DNA from: Sphingorhabdus sp. YGSMI21 | Lineage (GTDB): Bacteria > Pseudomonadota > Alphaproteobacteria > Sphingomonadales > Sphingomonadaceae | Length of the DNA: 64,000 nucleotides | Direction: 5' to 3' | Assembly: GCF_002776575.1 (NCBI RefSeq) | Contig: NZ_CP022548.1 | Location: 2,433,001 to 2,497,000 of the forward strand | Part shown: in pieces, positions 50,589 through 54,080 of the stretch | How positions within the stretch are numbered: position 1 is the first letter of the stretch | Layout: each line of letters starts with the position of its first letter | Program-made: the position numbers and the translations under genes | Notes under the pieces: model-generated | Seen by the model: only the letters and a program-made list of their open reading frames with translations | The model's database searches: none | What the model was told of the DNA's origin: nothing

Positions 50589-50703
50589 ATGGCGATCGAA
50601 AAATACTGCACCGCACAACAGAATCATTGACTCCACCCGGCCGCTGATCCACTCTCGAATCTGCTTTTTGATCGGCGCTCTCGGGCAAGGTTCAGGAGGC
50701 GTT

Positions 50704-50991
50704 GCGGGAGAGCGTTTTCTGTCCCACCAGACAAAAAGCCGCCGAAGGAGCAACCGCCCCGGAAACTCTCAGGCCCCTGGACCGCAATCGTCTCACAAGC
50801 ACTCTGGAAAGAGAGCGGATGGTTATAACGACCGGCGCTCCACCGAAGGGGTAAATGGCGCTGGAATTTATCCGGCATGAACGCTCGCCGTTCGTCCTGA
50901 GCTTGTCGAAGGATGACTGGAAAGCGTGCTTCGACAAGCTCAGCGCGAGCGGAAGTGTAAAGCCATGAAACTCTCAGGTTCCGTGACAGAG
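50704..50991 (+). ncRNA. Tandem glycine riboswitch upstream of gcvT
   Basis: Aptamer 1 spans about 50704-50785: GCGGGAGAGC, GCCGAAGGAGCAA, AAACTCTCAGG, GGACCGC. Aptamer 2 spans about 50802-50991: CTCTGGAAAGAGAG, CACCGAAGGGGTAA, AAACTCTCAGG, and CAGAG closing P1. Both have the conserved cores of the gcvT element, and the pair is followed by gcvT 50 bases on. Glycine binding is expected to turn the operon on. Aptamer 2 contains a 72-base palindromic repeat in its P3 arm (ATGGC 50855-50859 with GCCAT 50962-50966), making it about 100 bases longer than usual. Confidence 0.92.
50881..50952. repeat. Dispersed palindromic repeat inside the second glycine aptamer
   Basis: CTGAGCTTGTCGAAG (50897-50911) and CTTCGACAAGCTCAG (50929-50943) are perfect 15-base inverted arms around a 17-base loop; CGCTCG and CGAGCG extend the stem outside. 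This arm is the core of a repeat known from intergenic regions of many alphaproteobacteria. It lies within P3 of aptamer 2, whose conserved parts on both sides are intact. Confidence 0.8.
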
Positions 50992-51041
50992 GGGGCAGTT
51001 TTGCAGGGCTTTGCTGCGGGCTGTCTTCTTGATGCGGAAAA

Positions 51042-52187
51042 ATGATGAGTGAAAATAGCAAAAATCTGAAACAACTGCCGCTCGGCGACTGGCATCGCGG
51101 CCTCGGTGCGCGGATGGTGCCGTTCGCGGGCTATGAAATGCCGGTGCAATATGAAGGCGTGATGGCCGAACATATCTGGACCCGGACCGAAGCGGGTCTG
51201 TTCGACGTGTCGCACATGGGGCAGCTGCAGCTAATCGGCGAGGGCGCTGCCGACGCGCTCGAGCGGATCACGCCGGGCAATCTCTCGGCACTGGCGCCGG
51301 GCAAGATCCGCTACACATTGCTGCTCGCTCAGGATGGCGGGATATTGGATGATCTGATGGTCACCAACACCGGTCACAATCTCTATCTGGTGGTCAATGG
51401 CGCGACCAAGCATGATGATATCGCCTATTTGCGCGAACAATTGCCTGACAGCCTGACGCTGAACCATCTCGAAGATGCGGCGCTTCTCGCGCTGCAGGGC
51501 CCCAAGGCGGCGGAAGCGCTGGCCAAGCTTGGCATCGATCCGTTCGAGCCGGACTGGCCTGTCCCGACCGATCTTCACTTCATGGAAGCTGGGCCATTTC
51601 TCTGGAACGGTATCCCGCTGGGCATCAGCCGCTCGGGCTATACCGGCGAAGACGGCTTTGAAATCAGCGTGCCGGCCGAACATGCGGTGACGCTGGCAGC
51701 CGCGCTGACGGAATTGGAAGAGGTTCGCCCGATCGGCCTCGGTGCCCGCGACAGCCTCCGGCTTGAAGCAGGCCTGCCGCTTTACGGCCACGACATGAAT
51801 GCCGACATATTGCCGGTCGAGGCCAATCTGAATTTTGCCTTGTCCAAGGCGCGTCGCGAGGAAGGCAATTTTGCCGGAGCGGAGCGCGTACTGGCACAAT
51901 ATCCGGACAAGGCGGCAAAGAAACGCATCGGCCTGTTCGTCGATGGCCGGCAGCCGGTTCGCGAAGGCGCAACGGTTGTCGATGCCGCCGGCGAGACCAT
52001 CGGCACGGTGACCAGCGGCGGCTTCTCGCCCACGCTCCAGCGCCCGATCGCCATGGCCTATGTCCCGACGGACATGTCCGCAACCGGCACCGCCATCACG
52101 GTCGAGCAGCGCGGCAAGAAAATTGCCTGCACCGTCGCCGACATGCCCTTTGTGCCGCATAACTATCACCGCAAACCCAAGCCATAG
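51042..52187 (+). CDS. gcvT: Glycine cleavage T-protein (aminomethyltransferase)
   Basis: 381 aa; ATG at 51042, with a second ATG directly after. Folate-binding fold with [28 protein letters not shown] (with the catalytic Asp region) and [16 protein letters not shown]; the C-domain begins near residue 280. It transfers the methylene group from the H-protein to tetrahydrofolate. First gene of the riboswitch-controlled gcv operon. Confidence 0.97.
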
Positions 52188-52210: not shown

Positions 52211-52582
52211 ATGAGCCGATATTTTACCGATGAACATGAATGGGTCGAGGTCGAAGGCGACACGGCGACCGTCGGTATTACCGACTATGCGCAGGAACAG
52301 CTGGGCGACATCGTGTTTGTCGAAGTGCCGGAAGTCGGCACGGAACTGGAGCAGGGCGATGATGCTGCCGTGGTCGAATCGGTCAAGGCGGCGTCCGACG
52401 TTTATGCGGCGGTCTCCGGCGAGGTGATCGAAGTGAATGACGCGCTGGAAGACGAGCCGGGACTGGTCAATAGCTCGGCCGAGGAAGACGGCTGGTTTTT
52501 CCGGCTGACCCTCTCGGACAAGAGCGAACTCGACGATCTGATGGACGAAAAAGCCTATAAGGCCTTCGTCGACAATCTGTGA
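52211..52582 (+). CDS. gcvH: Glycine cleavage H-protein
   Basis: 123 aa. [20 protein letters not shown] is the family opening, and the lipoylated lysine is Lys59 in [11 protein letters not shown]. It carries the aminomethyl group between P, T and L proteins. 23 bases after gcvT. The L-protein (dihydrolipoyl dehydrogenase) is not in the window. A fold-back repeat separates it from gcvPA. Confidence 0.98.
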
Positions 52583-52702: not shown

Positions 52703-52721
52703 TAAAGTGAAGGAAGACCCT

Positions 52722-54080
52722 ATGCGTTATCTCCCGCTGACCCCCGACGACCGGCAATCGATGCTGTCCAAGATTGGCGCACAATCGATTGATGACCTGT
52801 TCGTCGATGTACCGGAAGAAGCCCGGCTGGATGGTCCGATCGAGGGCCTGCCGATGCACGCCGGCGAGATGGCGGTGGAAGCGCATATGAAGGCGCTGGC
52901 CCGCAAGAACCATGCGGCTGGTGACATGCCCTTCTTCCTCGGGGCGGGAGCCTATCGCCACCATGTCCCGGCCAGCGTCGACCATATCATCCAGCGCGGG
53001 GAGTTTCTGACCGCCTACACGCCCTATCAGCCGGAGATCGCGCAGGGCACGCTGCAGACCCTGTTCGAATTCCAGACCCAGGTCGCGCGCCTGTTCGGTG
53101 TCGATGTCGCCAATGCGTCAATGTACGATGGCTCGACCGCTTGCTGGGAAGCGATCGTCATGGCCCGCCGGATTACCAAGCGCGGCAAGGCGATTCTGTC
53201 TTCCGGTCTGCATCCGCATTATGTTTCGGTTGCCAAGACGATGGCACGCTTTACCAAGGACGATCTGTCCTATCAGGCGCCGACCCTCGAGGCCGCCACC
53301 GATGGTCAAGCCATGCTCGATCAGATCGATGACCAGACCAGCTGCGTTGTCGTGCAATATCCCGATATATTGGGCCGCATCGGTGACCTTTCCGCCATCG
53401 CGGAAAAAGCGCATAAGCACAAAGCATTGCTAATTGCTGTGGTCACGGAGCCGGTCGCTCTCGGAGCGATCAAGTCACCTGGCGAAATGGATGCCGATAT
53501 CGTGGTCGGCGAAGGCCAGTCGCTCGGCGTCGGCCTGCAATTCGGCGGTCCTTATGTCGGCCTGTTCGGCTGCAAGCAGAAATATGTCCGGCAGATGCCC
53601 GGCCGGCTGTGCGGCGAGACCGTCGATGCCGAAGGCAAGCGCGGCTTCGTATTGACCTTGTCGACCCGCGAGCAGCATATCCGCCGCGAGAAAGCGACGT
53701 CCAATATCTGCACCAACAGCGGCCTGTGCGCCTTGGCTTTCTCGGCGCACATGACCTTGCTCGGCGAGAAAGGGCTGCGCGAACTGGCGATGCTCAACCA
53801 TAAAAAGGCGGTGCAGGCAGCGGACCGGCTGTCGCAGATCGATGGCGTGAAGCTGTTGAATGACAGTTTTTTCAACGAATTCACGCTGGTTCTTGATGCC
53901 GATTCTCGGCCGTTGGTGCGTAAGCTTGCCGACCAGAGAATATTGGCCGGCGTGTCTCTCGGACGCCTTTATCCGGAGGTCACACCACTCGCGCACGGAT
54001 TGCTTGTCGCGGTGACCGAAACATCGACCGAGGAGGAGCTCGAGCAATTCGCGACCGCTCTCGAAGGAGCCCTGTCATGA
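52722..54080 (+). CDS. gcvPA: Glycine dehydrogenase (decarboxylating) subunit 1
   Basis: 452 aa from the ATG at 52722 (AAGGAAG upstream); an in-frame GTG at 52707 is less likely. N-terminal half of a split P-protein: [38 protein letters not shown], and [14 protein letters not shown]. With GcvPB it forms the PLP-dependent decarboxylase. It overlaps gcvPB by four bases. Confidence 0.97.

Follow-up and report, generated by a model that had tools for sequence, protein, structure and literature searches.

A dispersed palindromic repeat in the P3 arm of the second aptamer of a Sphingorhabdus tandem glycine riboswitch

The leader of the gcvT gene of Sphingorhabdus sp. YGSMI21 raises the question of how a long palindromic repeat came to lie within an arm of a riboswitch, and in what state it has left the aptamer that carries it. 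The window, i.e., the whole 64,000-nt stretch of DNA that was analysed, spans positions 2433001-2497000 of the contig in a genome of 4.06 Mb (L111 in our set of leaders). Within it, gcvT is preceded by a tandem glycine riboswitch and followed by gcvH and gcvP ORFs, all named by eye; the nearest relatives of its GcvT among the 80 named loci kept belong to a Sphingorhabdus MAG (88%) and a Sphingomonadales MAG (86%). As in the RF00504 tandem glycine riboswitches found before gcvT, there are two aptamers with conserved cores and CCCC/GGGG tracts, but here a dispersed repeat element sits in P3b of aptamer 2. The features are as follows.

50695-50794, + strand: glycine riboswitch aptamer 1 (RF00504, 57 bits, cut-off 32)
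50757-50760, + strand: CCCC tract, in the P3 loop of aptamer 1, that could form one half of a P5 pseudoknot (sequence; 83/83 tandem leaders)
50799-50995, + strand: aptamer 2 (alignment and pair counts in 17 leaders; split model matches in the window)
50802-50806 and 50987-50991, + strand: P1 of aptamer 2, CTCTG paired with CAGAG
50813-50840, + strand: P2 arm of aptamer 2, compact here (pairing; a type C motif lies there in some relatives)
50855-50966, + strand: P3b arm of aptamer 2, made of the closing stem ATGGC/GCCAT, a small hairpin GCTGGA/TCCGGC and the long repeat hairpin
50888-50952, + strand: 65-nt palindromic repeat element, type B, CCGTTCGTCCTGAGCTTGTCGAAGGA ... CTTCGACAAGCTCAGCGCGAGCGG (inverted repeat; copies in the genome; fold)
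50991-50995, + strand: GGGGG tract that follows aptamer 2 and might pair with the P3 loop of aptamer 1 (sequence; 83/83 leaders)
51042-52187, + strand: gcvT, aminomethyltransferase of the glycine cleavage system (ORF of 381 aa, named by eye and from relatives)
52211-52582, + strand: gcvH (ORF of 123 aa, named by eye from sequence)
52707-54080, + strand: gcvP subunit 1 (ORF of 457 aa, named by eye from sequence)

The reading that we favour, with a probability of about 0.7, is that of a tandem glycine riboswitch in which P3b of aptamer 2 received a dispersed REP-like palindrome doublet, the arm being later exchanged between relatives while the aptamer core stayed intact. The preliminary description of this DNA had placed the stem ATGGC/GCCAT around some 100 bases with a perfect 15+15 inverted repeat, and its coordinates are exact: the stem halves at 50855-50859 and 50962-50966 enclose 102 nt, the 65-nt element included. 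It had also held that the cores and P1 of aptamer 2 are kept, and the alignment with pair counts (17 of the 29 parsed leaders from the genus) bears this out. The core columns are invariant, and P1 and P3a, likewise invariant, form standard pairs in 100% of cells; P2 is paired in 94.1% of cells, and so is the P3b closing stem, where four of the five pairs have changed on both sides. When the partners are slid by 1-3 columns, the paired cells drop from 86.6% to 37-52%. Only the paired cells, the changed cells and the covariation score exceed shuffles in these 17 leaders; the pairs changed on both sides (10 vs 10.1 in shuffles) and the further pair types (35 vs 34.8) show no excess, and part of the both-side changes is replacement of whole arms, not single compensations. 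As judged from the aligned leaders, the core of aptamer 2 is unchanged despite the insert.

Covariance models present a less direct picture. The Rfam model RF00504 calls aptamer 1 in the window and does not call aptamer 2, not even at E<=10; at the loci of 20 relatives (19 from the genus and the Novosphingobium MAG locus L053) it finds aptamer 1 in all 20 and aptamer 2 only in L053. Because relatives with compact arms are missed too (19/19 genus loci), the miss is not due to the insert, and we dropped the idea that rejection by Rfam is a sign of decay. A purpose-built model of aptamer 2, R1, made from 48 compact aptamers, spans the full-length aptamer across the insert in two relatives outside its training set, L113 (70.9 bits) and L120 (73.5 bits), and gives 70.9-92.5 bits to the 14 genus aptamers outside that set, the window excepted. 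In the window it splits aptamer 2 into two partial matches of 34.3 and 24.8 bits, probably because CTGGAAAGCG at 50917-50926, inside the insert, resembles and thus mimics the motif with which aptamer 2 starts at its 5' end. Rejection of aptamer 2 by a covariance model had been named beforehand as an observation that would speak against the preliminary description; Rfam does reject it and R1 does split it, but Rfam misses the compact relatives alike. Given these misses and the split, model recognition is weak evidence here, and it is the alignment that carries the claim. A loss of function of aptamer 2 in these species, with its P3 arm free to drift, could be argued from the absence of Rfam calls in the genus and the existence of long arms; we regard it as very improbable, since it agrees poorly with the invariant core columns, the full pairing of P1 and P3a, the R1 scores outside the window and the preserved closing stems.

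The element itself belongs to a family. The perfect 15+15 inverted repeat lies at 50897-50911 and 50929-50943 and extends to 24+24 at 88% (50888-50911 and 50929-50952). That it comes from a dispersed family, as initially proposed, is confirmed by 34 exact matches of the 15-mer half-site CTTCGACAAGCTCAG in the 4.06-Mb genome vs 0 for the reversed control; in the window there are four matches at <=2 mismatches vs 0.12 expected. In the 30 of 34 half-sites that were read in context, the common element reads CCGTTCGTSCTGAGCYTGTCGAAGS...SCTTCGACAAGCTCAGSACGAACGG as judged by eye, and each position of GAACGG (+4 to +9 from the half-site) is kept in 29-30 of 30 copies. Inverted pairs of half-sites occur at three places of the genome, 32, 37 and 42 nt apart from start to start. 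The half-sites of this genome group into 28 clusters, and among the 24 that were scanned the window copy is the only one in a called Rfam RNA, so that the repeat family itself appears to have no preference for RNAs. The half-site is present in 28/32 genomes of the genus, in up to 45 copies, and across the class in 25/192 genomes, patchily, in up to 117 copies. Among the species with compact arms, 11/12 have <=3 half-sites genome-wide, and the three species that carry the element have 27-45; shared descent may explain this difference.

The element is in this respect like REP and BIME sequences, i.e., repetitive extragenic palindromes, which are short palindromes in many copies and sometimes in inverted pairs; unlike for those, no associated RAYT enzyme was found in its own genome. 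Four Y1_Tnp matches are present in that genome, two of them long, and no repeat copies were found beside the two long genes. These are two intact Y1 transposase genes (L178, L179), IS200-type TnpA by eye. A transposase of the own genome as the source of the element was dropped on account of the IS200-like appearance of the two long genes and the lack of adjoining repeats. Positions 50890-50950 of the window match the Rfam family AaHKsRNA41 weakly (25.1 bits, cut-off 97), and that model has a similar palindrome; membership was rejected, as the palindrome is the only common feature. Rickettsia palindromic elements occur also in RNA genes. The available excerpts of PMC10969869 describe Rickettsia elements that, like the one here, are palindromic repeats that enter genes and are tolerated there; unlike the one here, those sit within protein genes and in other hosts. 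In open-licence papers we found no report of the repeat sequence, and none in which a glycine riboswitch and the term repetitive extragenic palindromic appear together.

Taken alone, the element folds into a closed hairpin of -46.3 kcal/mol, i.e., the repeat adds a long hairpin, as had been anticipated. In silico, the minimum free energy structure outside the element is identical with and without it, forcing aptamer 2 costs 11.8 kcal/mol in both cases, and the ensemble probability of the aptamer 2 P1 is 0.0 in both, in a folding model that omits glycine, tertiary contacts and kinetics. Glycine switching is most likely little affected by the insert. The arm would be tolerated because it is a self-contained hairpin that points away from the core. 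The element arms of the three carriers are stabler than shuffles (z of -9.5, -5.2 and -7.5). Selection might conceivably maintain the hairpin for a role of its own, whether as a site of RNase III/E processing, as a site where a protein binds or as a folding module by which the switch is tuned: three species keep it, their P3 arms are 84-89% identical, and the inner 15 pairs are unchanged in all three. We consider this unlikely. The unchanged inner 15-mer is the half-site of the family, three sequences are too few for compensatory selection to be seen, sister species have no hairpin or a different arm, and model folding predicts no change elsewhere.

If the repeat entered a riboswitch arm, the question arises why only aptamer 2 received it. 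A leader parser applied to 137 loci yielded 86 tandem leaders, or 83 after removal of the duplicates L031-L033; the 51 loci without a parsed tandem leader are 48 among L058-L109 (mostly other Proteobacteria) plus L132, L148 and L150. Aptamer 1 has a P3 segment of 16 nt in 75 of these 83 leaders, of 17 nt in seven and of 18 nt in one, in keeping with the initial remark that aptamer 1 has no such insert, and the P3 segment of aptamer 2 ranges from 5 to 126 nt. All 83 have CCCC in the P3 of aptamer 1 and GGGG after aptamer 2. The excerpts of PMC13104608 describe a P5 pseudoknot of the tandem glycine riboswitch and the ON and OFF classes of glycine riboswitches. The partner of the GGGG tract here would be the P3 loop of aptamer 1, and this pairing would limit the length of that loop and keep it short; aptamer 2 may thus be the only one to take inserts because the P3 of aptamer 1 is held by the P5 pseudoknot. 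The same source reports that the tandem glycine riboswitch of Neisseria gonorrhoeae gcvT, a working translational ON switch, also has a lengthened P3 loop in its second aptamer, of 73 nt and Y-like by RNAfold, which varies between species; in its excerpts, unlike here, that arm is not linked to a repeat family or to exchange.

The history of the arm can be followed among close relatives. There are 30 genus loci with gcvT, our own included, of which 29 yielded a tandem leader, and their P3 arms comprise 3 with the element, 8 of a 64-nt type C, 12 compact and 6 others. The element is carried by L111 (the window), L113 and L120, in all of which the repeat is preceded by a similar non-repeat left flank, a G-rich small hairpin followed by TCCGGCATGAACG, at the same distance in each; on the right, the flank of L120 has 7 nt more. 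The type C arm is also palindromic (GTCGC..GCGACGGCGGACC..GTCCGCCGAAGCCTTGGCGAAGG) and is found in L112, L114-L117, L119, L123 and L124. These eight arms have z of -2.6 to -5.4 against shuffles, and none of them has lost any of the 19 consensus pairs, four of which show changes on both sides. The compact arms are of a TGG type and 23-29 nt long; among the six others, L121 has a 57-nt arm without the element, and the remaining five have other arms. P3 is a variable and tolerated place, as had been proposed, and most relatives have no element or another arm.

The claim that a mobile-type repeat entered this arm stands in part. A dispersed repeat does lie in a tolerated arm, and the carrier genomes G003 and G008 contain 27 and 45 half-sites, so that the same long arm in relatives devoid of copies elsewhere, which would have argued against this claim of the preliminary description, is not what is found. 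The search among related gcvT leaders for the empty site did not succeed: none of the genus leaders read has a base-exact one, and in the nearest element-free arm, that of L121, the closing stem is common and most of the arm differs. No target-site duplication of the kind expected of a MITE was seen by eye at the ends of 50888-50952, and no mobilising enzyme for the element was found. For these three reasons, entry by transposition is something we infer. A single copying event would have brought the repeat into the P3b loop, after which relatives would have exchanged the arm like an allele, recombining through the conserved cores of the riboswitch that flank it. Between L113 and L114, 50 of 52 bases agree before the arm and 72 of 72 after it; the arms themselves differ.

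Comparison with the gene trees points in the same direction. On the gcvT-to-gcvP tree, a single clade of the three carriers is rejected (AU p 5.5e-58), as are the pairing of the carriers L111 and L113 (p 2.9e-4) and that of the type C bearers L112 and L114 (p 1e-55); the pairing of L113 and L114, whose arms differ, is not recovered there and not rejected either (p 0.356), and the four closest species form an open fork. In the tree of gcvT alone, L113 with the element and L114 with the type C arm are sisters (support 100/99). The upstream 1.3 kb reject none of the three pairings (p 0.107, 0.341 and 0.144), and given this and the open fork on the longer tree, the case for exchange comes mainly from the gcv genes. 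Under the coding used, the minimum number of changes is at least 8 for the P3 type (30 rows), 8 for the P2 type and 6 for the state of the RNase P arm discussed below. These counts depend on the coding, which was done by eye or by simple patterns for the types of P3 and P2 and, in L118 and L123, for the RNase P state; L117 and L131, which yielded no RNase P, are excluded from the RNase P count. The distribution of the arms does not follow the gcv genes; since the carriers do not form a single clade, the arm and the operon seem to have changed independently of each other, and among close relatives it looks to have been swapped like an allele. Alternatively, the same repeat may have been inserted independently in separate lineages, with losses; in favour of this, the half-site occurs >=10 times in 18/32 genus genomes. 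Independent insertions would not, however, yield the similar left flank at the same distance in all carriers, and we consider them improbable, somewhat more so than a function of the hairpin.

A second palindromic motif appears to have filled arms in a similar way, in P2 and P3b of aptamer 2 and in P3 of RNase P RNA. The type C motif CGCYAARGCTNYGGCRG has 60 matches in the 32 genus genomes vs 8 for the reversed control, and 27 of the 60 lie in just two RNAs, 12 in leaders of gcvT and 15 in RNase P RNA (P3 arm), vs 0.013 expected if evenly spread, an excess that is inflated by shared descent and is not a count of events. At <=2 mismatches, the motif occurs in P2 of aptamer 2 in 11/82 and in its P3 in 9/82 (0-0.05 expected from shuffles), and in P2 of aptamer 1 in 0/79. 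The 15 RNase P matches sit near the 5' end of the RNA: 11 fall within the Rfam match, in G014, G015 and G016 the motif lies just 5' of it in the same arm, and in G012 the placement follows from sequence likeness, at a contig end. RNase P RNA was found in 30/32 genus genomes. In our own genome (L189) its P3 arm is compact. G017, G027-G029, G011 and G014-G016 have a long P3 arm composed of the type C motif or of a sequence close to it, and in G002 and G006 the arm is short and contains the motif.

Taken together, the repeat in the riboswitch arm, the short or other arms of sister species and the similarly filled arm of RNase P RNA make such arms seem landing places for repeats that leave the RNA core unbroken. 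A broader proposal, which we put forward tentatively and hold to be somewhat less probable than its negation, is that the outer arms of structured RNAs in this genus are a niche colonised by palindromic repeats and then traded between species as interchangeable arm cassettes, with the cores untouched; the glycine riboswitch would have received two such repeat families, and RNase P RNA one of these as well. If so, peripheral domains of RNAs would grow by capture of mobile repeats and recombination, not by gradual lengthening. The compact, element and other-palindrome forms, present in related species before the same operon, offer a comparable series for the gain of a peripheral arm, and they suggest a rule that could be applied across RNA families, i.e., that arms without tertiary partners accept repeats and arms held by a pseudoknot do not. 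They also carry a warning, as aptamers with inserts of this kind may go unrecognised by family models or be recognised only in pieces.

Several further observations concern these arms and motifs. Within the genus, the P3 arm of RNase P RNA at L203-L210, L256 and L257 is either compact or filled with a palindrome that consists of the type C motif or a closely similar sequence. L142 and L143, which belong to a different genus of the family, have this motif in aptamer 2, within P2, at <=2 mismatches. In the Novosphingobium MAG, the P2 of aptamer 2 (L053, 1215-1406) contains a long, near-perfect palindrome with the ends GGGGACACTATACTTAATTCC; Rfam calls this aptamer at 37.7 bits, and R1 matches only its 3' part, at 44.4 bits. 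A third dispersed family was considered for this insert and rejected, there being no other copy in the incomplete L053 genome and none in 199 genomes of the family. In several species, copies of the type C motif also lie about 90-140 nt from a tRNA gene (L212, L226, L249, L252, L253 and L235), and the one at L226 adjoins a probable GIY-YIG nuclease gene, identified by eye.
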